31,485 bases of DNA from a virus. The notes below the pieces were generated by a model that did no database searches, was not told the origin of the DNA, and was given only the letters and a program-made list of their open reading frames with translations. The translations under genes and the position numbers were made by a program. Location of the stretch: positions 1-31,485 of the IMG/VR virus record IMGVR_UViG_3300033141_001507. One strand, given 5' to 3'. How positions within the stretch are numbered: position 1 is the stretch's first letter; every line of letters begins with the position of its first letter. Shown here piece after piece: positions 1,461-13,006 of the stretch.

Positions 1461-1732
1461 GACCACTGCCCAAGGCGGGCGACCGTATCCACTGTGACCC
1501 CAACCGCGACGACGGTGACGTGCCTCGCCGATGGCGCAACCCTAACCGGCGATCGGCTGTCGTGCTGGCGGTGCTCCGTGACAAGGGGGTCGAGGACGTG
1601 GAGCTGATTGTGTTCAAGGTGTGGGGCTCTCGCCGGGGCTGGCGTTACCGCGTGGAGACCGATGTGTGGTGGGATGCCAGCACCGGCTGGGCTCCTGGCT
1701 CGCTGCCGAGTCGACCGCGGGTGGTGTTGTGA
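1457..1732 (+). CDS. Hypothetical protein between terminase genes
   Basis: A 91-aa protein read from a GTG that overlaps the previous stop (GTGA); its own stop again overlaps the terminase GTG start (GTGA). A longer open frame exists upstream (to 1304), but it runs through the previous gene and is not needed. The sequence is basic and Trp-rich, with a likely beta segment (RRSAVVLAVLRDKG, then VELIVFKVWGSR) and a WWD motif near the C-terminus. It could be a small SH3- or SPOUT-like barrel, but I cannot assign a family. The tandem GTG starts suggest strict translational coupling. Confidence 0.55.
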   Translation: MRPLPKAGDRIHCDPNRDDGDVPRRWRNPNRRSAVVLAVLRDKGVEDVELIVFKVWGSRRGWRYRVETDVWWDASTGWAPGSLPSRPRVVL

Positions 1733-3246
1733 CCACCGCCGCGCAGTCCCCGCTAGTCGAGGTCATGACCTTGCTTGGTCGGCTCGGTTGCGCGGAGGAA
1801 GCTCTCGCGACTCTCACGGATCAGGAGCGGATAGCGCTCGCGGCACTGAGCGAGGCATGGGAGCGGCCGAACCAGACCATCCCTCCAGATACGGAGTGGG
1901 ACATGTTCGCATTCATCGGCGCTCGAGGCACTGGCAAGACCTATCCCGTGAGCCGGTACGTTGCGGAGAAGGGGGCGAGCGGCGAGGCGATGCGGATCCT
2001 GCTCGTTGCCCAGTCGAAGCAGAAGGCTCGCGTCATCTTCGCAACGGGTAAGTGTGGCCTACTCAATCAGCCGCCGTGGCTCCGTCCGGTGCGCAAGGGG
2101 GACACGCTCATTTGGCCATCCGGGGCCGTCGCTGAAATCACCTCCGCAGCACCCACCGAGAAGAGCGAGGAGCGGGGCGACGAGTATGACCTGCTCTGGG
2201 CATCTGAGGTCAACGCGTGGGCTCGTGGGTGCCGTGTCGAGGTGTGGCGCAACGCCCGGCTATCGACCCGCTCAGGGGCTGCCAAGGTGGTGGTGGACAC
2301 GACGCCCAAGAAGGGCAACCCGATCATCAAAGAGATCAAGGCGGAAGCGGAGGCGGACAAGAGCCGGCGCACGCGGTGGATCCATCACGTGGTCGAGGAC
2401 AACGCGATCAACCTCGCACGGGGCTTTGTGGGCAGCATGCGGCGGGCACTGGCAGGCACACGAGCCGAGCGGGAGGAACTCGACGGCCTGGAAGCCGAGG
2501 ACGGTGGAGGGCTCATCAAGGACGAGTGGATCGAGGGTGCGCGTCGAGCTGAGCCGCGGACCTGGAAGCGTCGGATCGTGGTGCTCGACCCGACGATCGC
2601 CGATGCCAAGACCGGTGGCAACGATGCGGGCCTAGTGTGCATGGGCACGGGCATCGATGACCAGATCTACATCACCCGGGACCAATCAGAGATCATGGCT
2701 CCCGACGAGTGGGCCAAGCGCGCGATCAACGCTGTGATAGACGACCACGCGGACTGTCTCGTCATCGAGACCAACCGCGGTGGACGCGTCATCGACTTTG
2801 GGTTGGAGCTCCTCGCTCGTGACTTCGGGCAACAGCTTACGGTGGTTGAGATCGGAGCCGTCACGCGGTACACGCCGGGCACGATCAACGTCAAGCTCGT
2901 GCACGCCAGAGCTGATAAGTCGACGCGGTTTGACCCGGCGATCGTCGAGTACAAGGCCGGTCATATATCGCACGTGATAGGGGCCGATCTGGAGTCGCTC
3001 GAGGAGACGCTGACTAGCTGTGACTTGGCCACCGTCACCACGCGCAACAGTCCTGGCGATCTGGACTGCGTAGCTTGGGGCGTCATCGAGCTCCGGCAGC
3101 TGTATGAGCAGATACGTAGGGGCGAGCCAGGGGGCCAGGCTGCGGTGGTCAAGGCCGCTCGGAAGCAGCACAAGGCGGACCGCTCGCCGGTGACTGGGCT
3201 GCGGCCGACGCTTGGTCGAAAGAGACGGAGGGCGAACCTGCTCTAG
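1729..3246 (+). CDS. terL: Terminase large subunit (ATPase-nuclease)
   Basis: This 505-aa protein is the DNA-packaging motor that pumps phage DNA through the portal and cuts it. Walker A is GARGTGKT (residues 64-71), Walker B is YDLLWASE with catalytic Glu160, and the coupling motif is DTTP (190-193). The C-terminal RNase H-like nuclease shows its acidic set at Asp287 (VLDPT), Glu347 (VIETN) and Asp444/Asp446 (GDLDCVAW). Length is normal for a two-domain TerL. I chose the GTG at 1729, which overlaps the previous stop; upstream extension to 1621 would run through the previous gene. The 3' end converges with the portal gene and both use one CTAG for their TAG stops. Confidence 0.92.
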   Translation: MTTAAQSPLVEVMTLLGRLGCAEEALATLTDQERIALAALSEAWERPNQTIPPDTEWDMFAFIGARGTGKTYPVSRYVAEKGASGEAMRILLVAQSKQKARVIFATGKCGLLNQPPWLRPVRKGDTLIWPSGAVAEITSAAPTEKSEERGDEYDLLWASEVNAWARGCRVEVWRNARLSTRSGAAKVVVDTTPKKGNPIIKEIKAEAEADKSRRTRWIHHVVEDNAINLARGFVGSMRRALAGTRAEREELDGLEAEDGGGLIKDEWIEGARRAEPRTWKRRIVVLDPTIADAKTGGNDAGLVCMGTGIDDQIYITRDQSEIMAPDEWAKRAINAVIDDHADCLVIETNRGGRVIDFGLELLARDFGQQLTVVEIGAVTRYTPGTINVKLVHARADKSTRFDPAIVEYKAGHISHVIGADLESLEETLTSCDLATVTTRNSPGDLDCVAWGVIELRQLYEQIRRGEPGGQAAVVKAARKQHKADRSPVTGLRPTLGRKRRRANLL

Positions 3247-4964
3247 GTCCCTGTCGGTCTCACCTCGGACGCGGGGCCAACATCGGCAGCTGCTTCTCCT
3301 TCTGCTTCGCCTTCCACGGATCCCTTGGCCTCTTTCAGGGCCTTGAACTCGGCCACCATGAGCGATCCCTCGTCCGTGTTTTCGAGTGGGGTGAGTCCCT
3401 GTGATCGTCGCGCCTCATCGACCTTGACCACGACCGCGATGTCTGTTGGGGCAAGCTCCACTGACGACTCTTGTGCAGCTGCTTCCGCCGGCACCGTGAC
3501 CTGCGGCACTCCGAGGCGATCCGCGTACTCGTCCGCCCATGGCTGGGTGAGGATACCGGCCGATTTGCGGGCCTGGTAAGCGGTCGTGAAAGCGTCCTCG
3601 TTCGCGGCTTGGTGCTCCCGCTTTTGCTGCTCATCCGGGTCTGGCATCAGGTAGCGGCGTTGTGGCGCAAGGCTCGAGTCGCCTTGGTTGATGGCGGCCC
3701 ATGGCTCGATGACTCCCTCGTGGATGCCTCGCTCGATGGCCGCCTTGTCGCCTTGGATGACCGTTGAGGCCACGTCGAACAGCTTTGCTATATCTACACC
3801 GGGAGCACCTCCGGTGGCGCCTAGTGCTCCGTCCGTGCCGTTGTAGATGCGCTGAGCAGACTTCGCCGCGCTCAGTCCCAGCTCTTTCCAGATCTCCCAC
3901 ATGCGCGATGGGTTGCTGAGGATCTCGATCTCCGAGCCAAACTGAGCCAGCCCATAGGGCATGTCCAGGCTTGCCATGTCTTCGAGCAGTGCCAGCATGG
4001 CGAGCGCCTCAGGGCTTGTCGTGGCCTCCCCGGTGGGCGCGCCAGCATCATCGAGCACCGGGACTTGTAGCGGTTGTTGCTCTGGCAGCCTGCCGATGAT
4101 CTTCGAGTTGCCGTGGCTGTTGCTGCCCCTGTTCCAGTCCCGGCTGGAGTAGGCGGCTGATGCCCACGTGAGGGCTCCCGGGAGGAGCGCTGCGTCATGG
4201 CGCCATGGGAGCAGGTCGGAGCTGCGGTAGACCGTCCAGCGCCCATCGGCGTGGGTGATGGGGATCGAGGTCAGGTCGACCGTCTTGCCCTGTCGCTTGG
4301 CACGCTCGGATAGGTCACCGGCGAGGGCGTCCCGGTCCTCTTGCGAGGTCATGGCGTCGACTGACGTGTACAGCTGATCCTCCCATTCGCGATACCAGAC
4401 GAACTCGAGCGGCCATGGCCGGTGGACCACATCGTGACGGCTCCCATCGGGGCGAGCTGTCCACGTGTTGTAGCCGATGGCGATGGCGTGGTTGGCGAGA
4501 TCGCCGTTAATCGTTTTGATAGTGCCGCGGCTGATGGCGGTGCCTCGCGAGGGGCCAGGCTCGCCGAATAGGATCTCCCCCTCCCGTGCTACCCGTTGGC
4601 TCGCTGGCGACGGCCCCTTGGCACCGGGTGACATGGCTGGCTCGAGTGACACGGCCAGAGCAGCGAGCGGAGCCACGCGGACTTTCCAGGCCGTGAACAG
4701 GTCGGGATTGGTGCGCATCGCCACCGCGAGCTGTACGGGCCGGCGGAACCTGCCGGCGATCTGCTCGTCCCGCGCGCTCATGATGTCCTCGAGCGACCAG
4801 CCGAACGCGGCGGACGGGATGGACTGATGGAACGCCGGGACGCGTAGGTCCCTCATCCGGAACTCGTCACCTCGTCGTATCGGCTGCTGAGCCTTAGAGG
4901 CACCTAGGAGGGCGGGGAGGTTTCGGGCAACAGATATGAGTCTGGAGAGTAAAGACGCCTGCAT
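3243..4964 (-). CDS. Portal protein, Mu gp29/DUF935-like
   Basis: The portal is the dodecameric ring at one head vertex through which DNA enters and leaves. This 573-aa protein has the expected size, a helical N-terminal part, a central segment with alternating beta strands, and a C-terminal region with an IYNGTDGALGATGG turn followed by helices and INQGDSSLAPQRRYLMPDPDE, which resembles the crown-region end of DUF935-type portals. An acidic Ala/Glu-rich tail follows. I use the ATG at 4964; an in-frame TTG at 4985 adds 7 residues, and neither has a clear Shine-Dalgarno. A GCCCC/GGGGC hairpin abuts the ATG. It is oddly on the minus strand, downstream of an HTH gene, while neighbouring head genes run plus. 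The assignment rests on position, length and these motifs. Confidence 0.75.
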   Translation of the reverse strand: MQASLLSRLISVARNLPALLGASKAQQPIRRGDEFRMRDLRVPAFHQSIPSAAFGWSLEDIMSARDEQIAGRFRRPVQLAVAMRTNPDLFTAWKVRVAPLAALAVSLEPAMSPGAKGPSPASQRVAREGEILFGEPGPSRGTAISRGTIKTINGDLANHAIAIGYNTWTARPDGSRHDVVHRPWPLEFVWYREWEDQLYTSVDAMTSQEDRDALAGDLSERAKRQGKTVDLTSIPITHADGRWTVYRSSDLLPWRHDAALLPGALTWASAAYSSRDWNRGSNSHGNSKIIGRLPEQQPLQVPVLDDAGAPTGEATTSPEALAMLALLEDMASLDMPYGLAQFGSEIEILSNPSRMWEIWKELGLSAAKSAQRIYNGTDGALGATGGAPGVDIAKLFDVASTVIQGDKAAIERGIHEGVIEPWAAINQGDSSLAPQRRYLMPDPDEQQKREHQAANEDAFTTAYQARKSAGILTQPWADEYADRLGVPQVTVPAEAAAQESSVELAPTDIAVVVKVDEARRSQGLTPLENTDEGSLMVAEFKALKEAKGSVEGEAEGEAAADVGPASEVRPTGT

Positions 4965-4980
4965 GCCCCTATTCTGGGGC
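4965..4980 (-). promoter_or_regulatory. Hairpin directly upstream of portal start codon
   Basis: A perfect 5-bp inverted repeat, GCCCC with a 6-base loop and GGGGC, lies immediately before the portal ATG in the portal mRNA. It contains the only purine-rich stretch near the start, so it could hide the ribosome entry site. No U-tract follows, so it is not a terminator. Role as a translational control element is inference. Confidence 0.35.
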
Positions 4981-5002
4981 AGCAATCAGCAATCCACTAG
5001 CG

Positions 5003-5263: not shown

Positions 5264-5341
5264 ACAGTTGTCCGGGTCTTGCACTGTCCGAGCTGATCGC
5301 GCCAAAATTGGAGCGTGGGAAGCAAGCTCTGGCAGACGATC

Positions 5342-7792
5342 ATGGCGACGGCAACTGGCCGGCGAAAGATGCGACGACGCGTGCTGCTCTCCGGCGGTAG
5401 CGGGAGCGTCCGGCGGCTGTCGATTGAGATCGAGCTAGGCCCTGACGGTGAGCCCCCTGCGGAGTTCCGCCTGTTCAAGGCTGGAATCAACTCGACTCGC
5501 AACGGGCCCTACCTGTTTGATGCCGAGGCCGCACGGCTGACGATGGCTGCGTTCGCCGAGCACGGCACCGATGTGATGATCGATCTGGAGCACCTCGCGG
5601 TCGCTCCGGGTGAGGTCACCGGCGACGCTCGCAACTTCGACCCCGACGCCAGGGGCTGGGCGAAGCTCGCTCTTCGCAACGGGGAGCTCTGGGCTGTCTC
5701 CGTAAGCTGGACTCCAGATGGTGTCAGGCGGCTGAAAGAGCGGACACAGCGCTACGTGTCCCCCGCGTTCGATGTTGACGGTGAGGATCGGGTTATCTCG
5801 ATCCACAACATCGCCCTGACCGCCACCCCCGCAACAGATGATGCGTTCCCGCTTGTGGCACGCCAAACGATTGGAAAAACAATGAAGCTCTCCGAGTTCC
5901 TCAAGCGCTGGCACAAGCTCTCTGTCTCACAACGATCCCTCCCTGCCGGTGACAAGCTGCTGGCGTTGCTTGCGATCGACATGAAGACCTTGCAGTCCGT
6001 GGTTAAGGCCATGGGCGGTGACCCGTCTGGCGACCTGACCAGCATGTTCTCGGCGGTCCGCATGTTCGCGGACGAGCTCGCGGCCAGTGTCACCGGTGAT
6101 GCTGCCCCCATGCCCATCGAAGGCGATGATGCCGGGATGCTCGCGGACGATCCGGCCACCCCCACCCCAGCCCCTACCGAGGGCGACTCGGTCGCGGCTC
6201 GCGCGGTGACCGATGAGTTGGAGCTGCTCCGCAAGAGCAACGCCGAACGGGATGCCAAGCTCAAGCTGCTCCAGACGGAGCGAGACGAGCGCATCCAAGC
6301 CGACCGTGTAGAGCTGTGTCGCCAAGCCGTGGCCACTAACGCGCTGCGTCCTGGTCAGGTCTGGCAGGACGGTGAGGACGGGAAGCCCCAAGCGTACCTG
6401 AACACGATGACGCTAGATGGCATCCGCCAGCTCATCACCACCGGCGGCGGTAGCCTCTCCCCCACGCTGCTCTCGGTCACCCCGCGACCCCCGGTCGATG
6501 GCTCGATCGTGACCGCGGAGCCTGGCATCGAGATGAGCGAGTATGAGTCCAAGCGGCTCCGCGCCACCGTGGATCGCATCCGGGCCAAGGACAAGCTGCC
6601 CCAGGCCACTGATGGCGACTACATGCTCGCCACCGAGCGCTATCAGGACCATCGCGGCCAACAGCTCAAGTGGGCTGAGAGCGAGGGCAAGCATCGGGTG
6701 GTCGTCAGGTACGGCCGCAAGATCGAGGAGATCCACACCCTGTCCACCGTCACTGGCAATCTGCGCGGTGACTGGCTCAAGCTGTTAACCAACCCAGTCC
6801 AGCCGATCGAGGCGTTCGGCCCAGCGAGTCAACGAAGCCTGGAAGAGTTCAGGACCGAGTACATGGTCAACCTGGCTGCCCAGCTCGAGGACTGGACGGG
6901 CGATATCGGTGACGTGCTCTCGAGCGGGTCACTTCGGACCACGTATCCTCTGGACTTCCAGTCCATGAAGTACCTCAAGCGGACTGCCCAAGCTGCTCCC
7001 GCGAGCACTCCCCAGTCAGCGGAGATCAACGTCAATCAAGACGAGTATGTTCTGGCTGCCGAGGGTGAGCTCAAGCGCATCCTCCGCGGCGACTTCGCTT
7101 ACCTTAAGAGCTGGCAGAGCAAGGCCGGTCAGATGGCCCGTGCTCGCGTCCGTCTCCGTGGTCTGCTCATCATCACCCTGCTCGAGGCCAACGGGCTCTG
7201 GGCACCGTCCGACGCCGTCCCGGCCGGACTGGACACCAAGAACTTCTTTGCGACCGACCACGCCGCTAACCCCTTCGATTCCCTCGCCGGCACCGGCTCC
7301 AATCTCAGTGGCGCAACCCAGCCCCTGAACGCGGACAACCTCACCACTCAGAAAGCGGCGATGCTCTTGGTCCCGTTCTTCGACGGGATCGACATGGCTA
7401 AGGAAGCGAGCGACCTGTTCCTTCCGACTGCGATCGCCGAGAAGGCTCGACTGCTCCTCACCGTCCAGGACGTCATCCTCCGCGACAGTGCGGCTAAGGA
7501 TGCATCGGCTGGCGTCACGAATGAGCACAAGGACAGCGGCTTGGGTCGCATCCTCGCCCCACAGCTGACCGGCGCTGGAGCCGCGTCCGACCACTACCTG
7601 ATCAGTCGTGACATCATCGCGGACGGCTTTACCCCGTGGGTCATCGCCGAGGATCCGATGGAAGAAATCCGGGAGTGGGACCAGAACTCCGGCTACTACA
7701 AGGACACCGGTAAGATCAAGATCCAGAGTCATCTCGGCATGAGCGCGGTCCTGCTCTGGTGGCAGGGCATCCGTAAGGTTCGAGGCGCATAG
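5342..7792 (+). CDS. Prohead protease-scaffold-major capsid fusion protein
   Basis: An 816-aa single ORF that joins what are usually two or three genes. Residues about 39-175 match the Mu gpI-type maturation protease: EH with candidate catalytic His84, then RGWAKLALRNGELWAV, SWTPDGV and RYVSPAF with candidate Ser140, then ALTATPA. Residues about 180-480 look like a scaffold: acidic linkers and a charged coiled coil (ELELLRKSNAERDAKLKLLQ). From about 490 to the end it resembles the Mu gpT major head subunit (SLEEFRTEYMVNLAAQ, KNFFATDHAANPFD, TALLV-like helix, ending VLLWWQGIRKVRGA). Upstream GTG (5315) and downstream ATG (5369) starts are possible; none has a strong ribosome binding site. In the cell it would co-assemble and cut itself apart in the prohead. 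The fusion is read directly; the domain names are from family memory. Confidence 0.82.
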   Translation: MATATGRRKMRRRVLLSGGSGSVRRLSIEIELGPDGEPPAEFRLFKAGINSTRNGPYLFDAEAARLTMAAFAEHGTDVMIDLEHLAVAPGEVTGDARNFDPDARGWAKLALRNGELWAVSVSWTPDGVRRLKERTQRYVSPAFDVDGEDRVISIHNIALTATPATDDAFPLVARQTIGKTMKLSEFLKRWHKLSVSQRSLPAGDKLLALLAIDMKTLQSVVKAMGGDPSGDLTSMFSAVRMFADELAASVTGDAAPMPIEGDDAGMLADDPATPTPAPTEGDSVAARAVTDELELLRKSNAERDAKLKLLQTERDERIQADRVELCRQAVATNALRPGQVWQDGEDGKPQAYLNTMTLDGIRQLITTGGGSLSPTLLSVTPRPPVDGSIVTAEPGIEMSEYESKRLRATVDRIRAKDKLPQATDGDYMLATERYQDHRGQQLKWAESEGKHRVVVRYGRKIEEIHTLSTVTGNLRGDWLKLLTNPVQPIEAFGPASQRSLEEFRTEYMVNLAAQLEDWTGDIGDVLSSGSLRTTYPLDFQSMKYLKRTAQAAPASTPQSAEINVNQDEYVLAAEGELKRILRGDFAYLKSWQSKAGQMARARVRLRGLLIITLLEANGLWAPSDAVPAGLDTKNFFATDHAANPFDSLAGTGSNLSGATQPLNADNLTTQKAAMLLVPFFDGIDMAKEASDLFLPTAIAEKARLLLTVQDVILRDSAAKDASAGVTNEHKDSGLGRILAPQLTGAGAASDHYLISRDIIADGFTPWVIAEDPMEEIREWDQNSGYYKDTGKIKIQSHLGMSAVLLWWQGIRKVRGA

Positions 7793-7840: not shown

Positions 7841-9274
7841 ATGGCACTCGACAAAGAACACTCACAAGAGCAGCTCGCCTCCTATCTGGCCGAGTCACAA
7901 GCACGCATCGCCGGTTCCGCGGATGAGATCTTCGAATCGGCGATGGTCCATGCCAAGGCAGACGGCTACGTTGTCAAGGTCGGCGACAGTGGCGGGCTCG
8001 GTATCGGGCCGGTGCTCGGTGTGGCCAAGTTCGGGCAGGACAACAGCTCCGGCTCTGACGGTGACAAGAACATCGATCTGCTAACCGGACTGTTCGCACG
8101 CAAGAACAGCGCTGGCTCCGCGGTGACGATCGCTGACTTCGGCAAGATCATCTATGCTGAGGACGATGAGACCGTAAGCGACGACGACACGGATCCCGTT
8201 GCCGGGACCATGTGGGGTTTCACGGAGGAGAGCACCCCGCGCGTCATCGTGCTGATCGGTGCAAGTAGTTCCGTATCAGATCTCGCTGCTGACCTGGCTT
8301 CGATCCTCAATGGCTTCGGCGCGAGCATGGTCGGAGTCGAGGACGTGGCCGGCACCTTCGCCGGTGCGGACGTTGAGGCGGTGCTCGCGGAGATCATCAC
8401 GCTCCTCGCGAGCATTGTCGCTACCGAGGGCTCGGCCATGATCGGGACCGAGGACGTCGGAGCCTACTTCGCCGGTGCCACGGTCGAGGCGATCCTCCAA
8501 GAGATCGGAGCGAATACCGGCGCTGGTGTCGTGGGTATCCTCGATGCTGCTGCCCACTTCGCAGCCGTGGATGTGGAGGGCGCGCTAGCCGAGAACGCTA
8601 CCGCCATCAACGTGCTTCGACCCGGGGCGCCGATGATGAACAGGGTGATCATGCTCGGTGCACCTGGTGCCATCGTGGCACTGGACACCGTGACGATCGG
8701 CACCGATATCTACGAGTTCAACGCCGCGACCCCGCCCGCTGCTGGCACCGCCGGCAGTATCTGGGTCTACCAAGGCGCCAACAGCGCGGACTCCCGGGCC
8801 AATCTCATCAACGCCATCAACGGCGTTATTGACGCGCCGAACATCACCTATGACGGCGCGGTGGTCGAGACCATGCTGGCTGTCGCCGGGACCACTCTTG
8901 GCACGGTCAACATCAACTCAGCCGATGCCATCGGTGGGGCAATCACTCCAAGCGCCGTCGGGGTAGCGTGCGCCGAGGGGCTGACGACCGTCACGGACAT
9001 CTGGGATGCCAATGCCACGTATGCCGGTGAGGCTGCTGGTGAGACCCAGAGCCAGATGGTAACTTTCGCGGTCACAGCCGCCGAGATCACCGCCGGCTTC
9101 GTGGAGATCTACTTCGACTTCACTCCGACTTCGGTGATGCTGAATGACCGGAACGTCCCCATGCATGATGAACCGTACACCATCACCGGTGACGCGGTGG
9201 TGCTGACGCTGACGGGTGGTGGAGCTCCCAACATCCAGGCCGGTGACGTCATCGACATCCACGTACAAGGCTAG
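7841..9274 (+). CDS. Capsid decoration-like structural protein with three repeats
   Basis: A 477-aa protein directly after the capsid gene, with AAGGACC ribosome-binding repeats before its ATG. Residues 1-135 resemble capsid cement/decoration proteins (ADGYVVKVGDS, VTIADFGKIIYAEDDETVS, PVAGTMWGFTEE). Three repeats of about 25 residues follow at 161-185, 198-222 and 229-253 (consensus VGxEDVAxxFAGAxVEAxLxEI), a module common in phage surface proteins. Residues about 268-380 form a beta domain (TVTIGTDIYEFNAATPPA) and 398-477 a final beta-sandwich. Position suggests it sits on the outside of the capsid and binds there as trimers, by analogy with decoration proteins. The name is inferred from position and N-terminal similarity; a combined head fibre is the main alternative. 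Confidence 0.65.
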   Translation: MALDKEHSQEQLASYLAESQARIAGSADEIFESAMVHAKADGYVVKVGDSGGLGIGPVLGVAKFGQDNSSGSDGDKNIDLLTGLFARKNSAGSAVTIADFGKIIYAEDDETVSDDDTDPVAGTMWGFTEESTPRVIVLIGASSSVSDLAADLASILNGFGASMVGVEDVAGTFAGADVEAVLAEIITLLASIVATEGSAMIGTEDVGAYFAGATVEAILQEIGANTGAGVVGILDAAAHFAAVDVEGALAENATAINVLRPGAPMMNRVIMLGAPGAIVALDTVTIGTDIYEFNAATPPAAGTAGSIWVYQGANSADSRANLINAINGVIDAPNITYDGAVVETMLAVAGTTLGTVNINSADAIGGAITPSAVGVACAEGLTTVTDIWDANATYAGEAAGETQSQMVTFAVTAAEITAGFVEIYFDFTPTSVMLNDRNVPMHDEPYTITGDAVVLTLTGGGAPNIQAGDVIDIHVQG

Positions 9275-10431: not shown

Positions 10432-11030
10432 TGCCGACCTACCTCAGCGCAGCTCTCCGCACCCAGCTCGTGACGCAGCGCGTCCCCTATGAGCTCGTAG
10501 ACGGACCTGAGCGACTCAACCAGGGGCCAAGTGTAGAGCCGCATGTGACCCTCCAGCGTGACCCTACCGGCGACACTTGGAAGCCTGCGATTAGTCGAGT
10601 GGGCAACAACCCGAGCTATCTCATGACGAGGGTTATCGGGATGCAGCTGCTGATCTACATGCAAGCGCGCAAGGCATCGCCGAGCACCCTCGACCATGAT
10701 GATCAGACCGACTCGGTGGTCAAGCAACTTGCGGTTGCGCTCTACCATGTCTTTGGGCACGGGTTCGGGACTCGGGTGGAATGGCGCTTCAAGCCGTCTC
10801 GTTTTCTCACCGTGGCTGAGATCGATGAGCTCAACCTCACTCGTTGGCCGGGCCGGATCTACCTGCTCCCCTTCGACTTCGATGACGCGATCCTGGACAA
10901 GGATGCCGAGGGCGACGCTCTACCCACGTTTGAGTTTGCGACGGGTGACGTAGTCACGACCATTACCACTAGCGGCTCCGGCTCAGCCGGTGGCCTACCA
11001 TCAGCAACAACGGAGCTTGACGACTCATGA
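10431..11030 (+). CDS. Tail terminator candidate upstream of sheath
   Basis: A 199-aa protein immediately before the sheath, the usual place for the tail terminator of contractile-tailed phages, which caps the tube and stops its growth. The sequence mixes helices and strands (VTLQRDPTGDTWKPAIS, MQLLIYMQARKA, VVKQLAVALYHVFG, WPGRIYLLPFDFDDAIL), like the small alpha/beta fold of terminators; the strand-rich VEWRFKPSRFLTVAE resembles the fold's later part. The C-terminal 30 residues are low-complexity Thr/Ser/Gly. Start is fixed by the TGATG overlap. Assignment by synteny and composition, not by a clear motif. Confidence 0.5.
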   Translation: MPTYLSAALRTQLVTQRVPYELVDGPERLNQGPSVEPHVTLQRDPTGDTWKPAISRVGNNPSYLMTRVIGMQLLIYMQARKASPSTLDHDDQTDSVVKQLAVALYHVFGHGFGTRVEWRFKPSRFLTVAEIDELNLTRWPGRIYLLPFDFDDAILDKDAEGDALPTFEFATGDVVTTITTSGSGSAGGLPSATTELDDS

Positions 11031-13006
11031 CCCTACCGAGCGCAACCACGACCCTAGAGCAGGTAGCTGGCCCCAAGGCAACGGGCTCCGATTTGGTGAC
11101 CATCCTGGCAGCCGTGCCGACCAATGCCGATATCACCCCGCGGCTCTATGCTCGCGCCGATGACATCGAGACGCAGCACGGCTATTCGCAGGGGCTGGAT
11201 CGCGCATCGGTATTCATCGCGATTACCAACTTGCCCGTGCTGTTCGTGGGCTTGCCTATCGATGTCCAGGGTGCCGTAGGGCGCTTTGACGTGTCGGGCA
11301 ACAGCAACACCTCCGTCGTTACCGTGGCGGCCGGCGGCGATGGCTCGCTCGAGGTGGTGCGCGGCATTTGCAAGGTGGTGACCGGCGGCATCGTTGGCAC
11401 CGCGATCATCAAGCTGAGCATCTCGCTCGATGGCGGGCACGTCTACAAGTCGGTACGTCTCGGGACCGCGAACAGCTACGTCATCCCCAAGGTGGGCCAG
11501 ACGCTGTCGTTTGCGGCTGGTAGCCTGACGGCCGGTGAAACGGCCCTGACATGGTCGAGCACCGCTCCGACCGCGTCGAACAGTGACATCACGCTGGCCA
11601 AAACCGCGCTAAAAAACCAGGCCAAGCTGAGTCGCGCTTGGTTCTTGGCCTATGACATCGAGGCCTCGTCTGATATTTCCCAGTTCAAGACGGAGGTCGA
11701 TGCCTACGAGACGTCAGACGACCGTTATGTGCAGGGCTATGCGGGTATCCGGTCCAAGGATCCGCAAGCCGAGCTGAGCCAGCTACGCGTGTGGATGACC
11801 GGCTCGCCAGCTATCACGTTCGCCGATGCTGGAGGAGCTGACACGATCACTCGTGCGGCTGGCTCATTCACGACTGACGGTTTTACCACTGGTGACACGG
11901 TCGTTATCGCTGGTGCCGTTGCCGGCGGTGGAGCGAATAACGTCACCGCGGTCCCGGACACGTTCGCGGCATTGGTCCTCACACTCGGTGCAGCCGATCC
12001 CCTGCAAAACGAGGGACCGATCGCCGGGGTAACGATCTACGCGACCCCGACGCTCACCTTTGTGGACGGCGGCGCAGGTGTCGACACCATCGTCCGCAAC
12101 CGCGGGAGCTGGTTTAACGATGGGTTCCGCGTGGGTGATAGCGTCGCCATCACCGGGACCGCGAGCAACAACTACACGGCAGTGATCACGGTCCTCACCG
12201 CGACTACGATGACGTTCATCACCGGCACCGTCGTTGCCGAGGTGATCGGCTCCTACGGCGTGACCATCATCTCGGGCGCTACCTACGCGGTGGACGTAGC
12301 TGCCATGGAGATCGCGTTCGCCACGGTCACCAGTGACCAACGGATCGAGATCAGCTATGGCCGGCTGTGGTACTCGTCCCCCGTAACGGGCTACAAGCTG
12401 CGCTACCCGGTGGCACTGGCTGACATGATCCGCAGCTTCCAGCGGGATCTCTCCGAGACCACCTGGGAGAAGGGCGTGGGGTCGCTGGCAAATTGGGGCA
12501 TGACTGACCCGGACGGCCTGCCCTTCGAGTACGATGAGCGGCTCTATCTGGCAGCTGAGCCGGCGGGCTTCACATGCGCTCGGACGTGGGCATCGGACGC
12601 CAGCGGAGCCCCCTACATCGCCGTTTCACAGACACGCCAGGGTGACCAGGGCGTGCTGCTGCAATCGCACTATGCCCGTGTGGGCAACCTCGCTCAGACC
12701 GTAGCGCAAGCCGATGGCGAGAACATCGTGGGCTCGCTCCTCGTGACCAAGCGGCCGGACAGTCTCGGGCGCAAATACGCCACTACCGCGAGCCTGGCCA
12801 CCATTGAAACCAAGTTCAACACGGGCCTGACCCGCGCCCTTGGCGGCACGACTCGCAGGGGCATCGGTCCGCGGGCATCACAGGCCGTCTACACCGCTGC
12901 GACGGATGACGACTTCGCAGCATCAGGCGCCAAGCTCAATGGCTCGATAGAGCTCAACGTGCTTGGCACGATCTTCACAGTCCTAACCGCAATCAGGATC
13001 CAGTAA
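11027..13006 (+). CDS. Contractile tail sheath protein with two inserted beta modules
   Basis: A 659-aa protein that forms the contracting outer tail layer. The N-terminal part (DLVTILAAVPTNADITPRLY, then FLAYDIEASSDISQFKTEVD) and the C-terminal part (KLRYPVALADMIRSF, GFTCARTWASDASGAPYIAV, VLLQSHYARVGNLAQTVAQA) fit the DUF3383-like sheath group. Two tandem extra domains lie at residues 263-338 and 342-416, both starting with a TF.D.G...DTI.R..GS pattern and sharing GD.V.I.G; these would decorate the outside of the tail. Position before the tube gene supports the call. It starts in an ATGA overlap and is longer than most sheaths of this group because of the insertions. Confidence 0.82.
   Translation: MTLPSATTTLEQVAGPKATGSDLVTILAAVPTNADITPRLYARADDIETQHGYSQGLDRASVFIAITNLPVLFVGLPIDVQGAVGRFDVSGNSNTSVVTVAAGGDGSLEVVRGICKVVTGGIVGTAIIKLSISLDGGHVYKSVRLGTANSYVIPKVGQTLSFAAGSLTAGETALTWSSTAPTASNSDITLAKTALKNQAKLSRAWFLAYDIEASSDISQFKTEVDAYETSDDRYVQGYAGIRSKDPQAELSQLRVWMTGSPAITFADAGGADTITRAAGSFTTDGFTTGDTVVIAGAVAGGGANNVTAVPDTFAALVLTLGAADPLQNEGPIAGVTIYATPTLTFVDGGAGVDTIVRNRGSWFNDGFRVGDSVAITGTASNNYTAVITVLTATTMTFITGTVVAEVIGSYGVTIISGATYAVDVAAMEIAFATVTSDQRIEISYGRLWYSSPVTGYKLRYPVALADMIRSFQRDLSETTWEKGVGSLANWGMTDPDGLPFEYDERLYLAAEPAGFTCARTWASDASGAPYIAVSQTRQGDQGVLLQSHYARVGNLAQTVAQADGENIVGSLLVTKRPDSLGRKYATTASLATIETKFNTGLTRALGGTTRRGIGPRASQAVYTAATDDDFAASGAKLNGSIELNVLGTIFTVLTAIRIQ

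Follow-up and report, generated by a model that had tools for sequence, protein, structure and literature searches.

In the window, a stretch of 31,485 bases that is a metagenomic virus record in its own right, one gene combines the protease and assembly scaffold of a phage head with its shell protein. Positions 5342-7792 of the plus strand form a single frame without a stop codon, which encodes 816 amino acids, and the open frame around the gene starts at 5297. The codon-position GC periodicity is identical before, across and after the joint between the protease-scaffold and capsid parts. An earlier note on this DNA had described an uninterrupted frame with a three-part make-up, and had contrasted it with phage Mu, in which gpI, the nested gpZ and gpT are encoded by separate genes. 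The frame is stop-free and its coding signal unbroken at the joint, the three-part make-up is borne out, and the Mu record indeed holds I, a nested Z and T; the arrangement does have precedents, however, as fusion families exist in both NCBIfam and PHROG.

Make-up of the fused protein

The features of the gene are the following, all on the plus strand:
5342..7792, plus strand: fused gene for a Mu gpI-type protease, a scaffold and a gpT-like major capsid protein of the HK97 fold, 816 aa (translation, codon periodicity)
5441..5869, plus strand: protease domain, residues ~34-176, with catalytic His84 and Ser140 (PF10123 and phrog_328)
5882..5884, plus strand: candidate nested start, ATG at residue 181, for a 636-aa scaffold-capsid product (position of the family's internal scaffold start)
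5882..6451, plus strand: scaffold-like helical region with a long helix at residues 281-331 (alignment to the relatives' protease-scaffold proteins; model)
6533..6682, plus strand: predicted two-helix segment, residues 400-447, beginning at a weak ATG at 6533 (model; place of the relatives' scaffold C-terminal tail)
6683..6787, plus strand: linker, residues ~448-482, of low model confidence, a putative scaffold/capsid cleavage zone
6788..7789, plus strand: major capsid protein core, residues ~483-816, HK97 fold (L006 homology, profile comparison, model)

In the protease part, residues 48-183 match the Pfam family Mu-like_Pro (PF10123; E=4.4e-18, 66.3 bits against a cut-off of 25.2), and residues 37-176 match the head maturation protease of PHROG 328 (E=6.6e-21). 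The EH and RYVSPAF motifs reported earlier are present in the fused protein as D81-L-E-H84 and R137-Y-V-S140-P-A-F, and H84 and S140 are invariant across the 15 aligned proteases.

From about residue 480 onwards, the fused protein is a major capsid protein of the HK97 fold. Compared directly with Pfam gpT (PF10124), the capsid half gave E=0.18 and 11.5 bits, under the cut-off of 20.1. It is 35% identical over 339 columns (E=1e-58) to the separate capsid protein of the relative L006; the PF10124 cut-off is passed by most of the relatives' capsid family, and the profile of this family matches the classic gpT profile, Mu's included, with an hhalign probability of 98.3 and E=1.5e-14. Judged via its family and the family's profiles, the capsid half is homologous to gpT. 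The model of residues 398-816 is of moderate quality (pLDDT 64.5) and matches HK97-fold shells, both phage capsids and encapsulins, at E ~4e-6, which is the HK97-type structural match that had been looked for in the C-terminal part. These fold matches include HK97 Prohead II as well as the procapsid of JBD30, which is of the gpT type, and viral capsid proteins are also matched, down to 6e-13. The model of the full-length 816-aa chain is poor (pLDDT 52.6, pTM 0.27), and a fold search with it carries no meaning. An alignment that mixed protease and capsid rows, meant for folding, was discarded because it is probably misaligned.

The end of the scaffold part differs from that in the relatives. 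A conserved C-terminal tail closes scaffolds from Mu to the relatives of the window. In the window, this tail scored at most 0.9 bits, within the shuffled background, whereas held-out relatives gave 6.6-55.6 bits, and the other reading frames of the window held no trace of it. A frameshift that would free a scaffold with a proper tail was rejected, as none was found. The view that the tail was simply lost had to be softened, because a predicted helical hairpin (residues 400-447) occupies its place, and in one of seven comparisons it shows marginal similarity (p=0.04) to the tail of L006. Residues ~448-482, which follow, combine low pLDDT with the lack of a counterpart in the relatives, and are therefore the likely zone in which scaffold and capsid would be cleaved.

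Relatives, gene order and origin of the fusion

Relatives were gathered by scans with the fused protein and with alignments, which gave twelve distinct loci with both halves (L001-L004, L006, L007, L009, L040, L044, L047, L049 and L050) plus the more distant L052. The protease-scaffold and capsid proteins are encoded in separate frames in all twelve, and in L052, usually with a decoration-type gene of PHROG 1731 between them; at L002:5932-7320 even the protease and the scaffold are two separate genes. In the window, the decoration homologue lies downstream of the fusion, and the neighbouring genes are:
1621..3246, plus strand: terminase large subunit (context; PF03237, phrog_2)
3243..4985, minus strand: Mu-like portal protein (context; weak PF06074 match; homologous to the relatives' portals, to 2e-92)
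7841..9274, plus strand: decoration/virion protein homologue (phrog_1731, E=2e-19; similar to the L007 and L040 decoration genes)

The terminase, the portal and the downstream genes flanking the fusion belong to the same lineage as those of the relatives. In the trees, the window protease falls in a 100/99 clade together with separate-gene relatives, the inner resolution of the protease tree being poor, and the window capsid is sister to that of L006 (88/88). Because the fused protein nests among separate-gene relatives, the fusion is, as far as these phylogenies go, most simply derived from separate genes. Its origin is probably independent of that of other three-in-one capsid genes. Several hundred Myxococcota and Actinomycetota genomes gave PF10123 and PF10124 matches, and no fusion was seen among the matches examined. 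A 1097-aa frame in L012 and one of 919 aa in G148 (L078/L096), considered as further fusions, proved to be spurious upstream readings, and the long PF10123 frames of G220 and G686 are without a capsid match.

Several features of the neighbourhood were observed as well. The decoration-type protein has 477 aa, and its PHROG 1731 match is limited to residues 26-130, with a long C-terminal part outside. The portal gene runs antiparallel to the protease and capsid genes in the window and in L001, L002, L004, L006, L007, L009, L040, L044, L047 and L049, but in the same direction as these genes in L003 and L050; a search for inverted repeats around the portal gene of the window gave none. Positions 11027-13006 encode a protein of 659 aa that is conserved across the whole lineage (E to 1e-148) and has no Pfam or PHROG match; its position suggests a tail or neck protein.

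A candidate nested start and a proposed model of assembly

A gene of this kind raises the question of how protease and capsid subunits are kept in proportion. In 12 genes, window included, an in-frame ATG lies 1-11 codons past the protease domain, in most of them with a good Shine-Dalgarno sequence. The anti-Shine-Dalgarno energy at these nested ATGs averages -6.6 kcal/mol, against -2.6 kcal/mol at 122 other in-frame ATGs (p=6e-6), and the RNA at these sites is less structured than elsewhere in the same genes (combined p=8e-5). At L002, the ATG in this position opens the stand-alone scaffold gene and is accompanied by AAGGAG, and the Mu record carries an annotated Z start inside gene I; L009 is without a nested ATG at the joint of protease and scaffold. 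As a signal in the DNA, the nested start after the protease domain is a family-wide feature. In the window its place is taken by the ATG at 5882, whose A-rich region ranks within the bottom 0.5% of the gene by GC content and within the bottom 3.5% of sites by degree of structure, although low GC at 5882, a domain joint, can have other causes.

The earlier note had reasoned that all subunits carry the protease, unless a weak internal start at 6534 supplies a shorter capsid protein. That ATG is present, at 6533 in exact terms, but the reasoning omits 5882, a better candidate, which stands at a conserved position, that of the Mu Z start. We infer that 5882 is a likelier answer to the protease/capsid stoichiometry than the ATG near 6534: its product, if used, would be without protease, so that HK97 gp5-like chains would be joined by a minority of protease-bearing ones.

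We give a little better than even chances to the reading in which a Mu-type I/Z was fused in frame to T, and the gene yields two products, a scaffold-capsid chain and a full-length protease chain. The protease-scaffold gene (I with nested Z) would have been joined in frame to the capsid gene (T), and the intervening decoration gene would have moved downstream along with the fusion. The start at 5882 would then give the 636-aa scaffold-capsid chain as the main product, which would form the procapsid much as HK97 gp5, with its delta domain, forms its own; a smaller share of full-length chains would bring the protease into the shell. Once the shell is assembled, the protease would sever the capsid subunits from their scaffold within the linker, and the scaffold fragments would leave the shell. 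Tentatively, and with somewhat less confidence, this may be the first three-in-one gene of the Mu I/Z/T type with two overlapping products, in a family that also occurs in split (L002) and nested form, its scaffold tail having decayed once it was tied to the capsid.

Alternatively, the gene may yield a single product: all subunits would be made as the chain of 816 aa, giving protease, scaffold and capsid at 1:1, and would mature by self-cleavage. The NF045540/541 fusion families, if those yield one product, would be a parallel, and fused families with single long proteins do exist. The Shine-Dalgarno sequence at 5882 is also weak (-3.3 kcal/mol), and by energy alone other in-frame ATGs in the window score better. 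However, the window has retained the nested ATG within an A-rich, open stretch, and in most relatives there are signals for making the scaffold as a product of its own, which leaves a single product rather unlikely. A third start near the capsid domain, at ATG 6533 or 6863, which would supply free capsid protein beside a full-length assembly chain, is quite improbable. The anti-Shine-Dalgarno energy at 6533 is -5.8, yet its spacing is long (12) and the two-helix segment would be kept on the capsid; 6863 has AGGA at 8 nt, but as residue 508 it lies inside the conserved capsid N-terminal part, and the relatives give no reason to expect either. An assembly or sequencing artefact (a chimera, a missed stop, a frameshift or a base error at the joint) is very improbable: although the only fused copy known is on a single metagenome contig and no close relative of the fused gene was found in the collections searched, the codon periodicity is continuous, the scaffold tail is absent from the other frames, same-lineage genes lie on both flanks, the ~85 residues of the joint keep the frame and include a helical hairpin predicted with fair confidence, and the decoration gene was relocated rather than merely deleted.

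Comparison with known systems

With fused and separate members together, the protease, scaffold and capsid of one gene family occupy three genes, two genes plus a nested start, or a single gene, a natural series for studying how phages set the protease-to-capsid ratio. The series also bears on the interconversion of the Mu-like assembly route, with a separate scaffold, and the HK97-like route, with a covalent one. The nested position of the fused member among separate ones indicates a change from separate to covalent in the lineage of the window.

The I/Z/T genes of phage Mu share with the window the PF10123 protease, the gpT-like capsid and the domain order; a nested scaffold start lies inside the Mu protease gene, and the candidate ATG 5882 is in the corresponding place. 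In Mu, however, T is separate and overlaps the end of I by 4 nt, whereas in the window T is fused to I/Z. In HK97, the scaffold is the delta domain of gp5; it is covalently linked to the capsid protein until the protease gp4, the product of a separate gene, removes it. The covalent scaffold is shared with the window, where its removal by the protease is to be presumed; the fused protease is not. The tripartite capsid gene of Gifsy-2 reportedly gives real capsids. Like NF045540, it unites a protease, a scaffold-like central part and a capsid within one gene, but the protease is ClpP-like and unrelated to the Mu-type protease of the window. The reference for the 'tripartite capsid gene' of phage Gifsy-2 is Effantin et al. 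(2010), as cited in PMC8538268. In JBD30, which has a gpT-type capsid, scaffold and protease are described as separate (PMC11445458).

The fusion families on record are NCBIfam NF045540 and NF045541 (scaf_prot_MCP2) and PHROG 4523, 'major head and protease protein'; Vibrio phage 1.083.O, an isolated phage, has a 671-aa protein that exceeds the NF045541 cut-off. The window protein had no match to these three models. In NF045541 and PHROG 4523, too, one polypeptide carries a protease, a middle region and a capsid part, the last with a distant relationship to gpT, but their protease half is not PF10123, that of phage 1.083.O being weakly similar to the HK97 proheadase. Summarizing, three-in-one capsid genes are already known from other phages; what is new is the fused pair of the Mu gpI/gpT type, together with a likely nested start in the fused gene.
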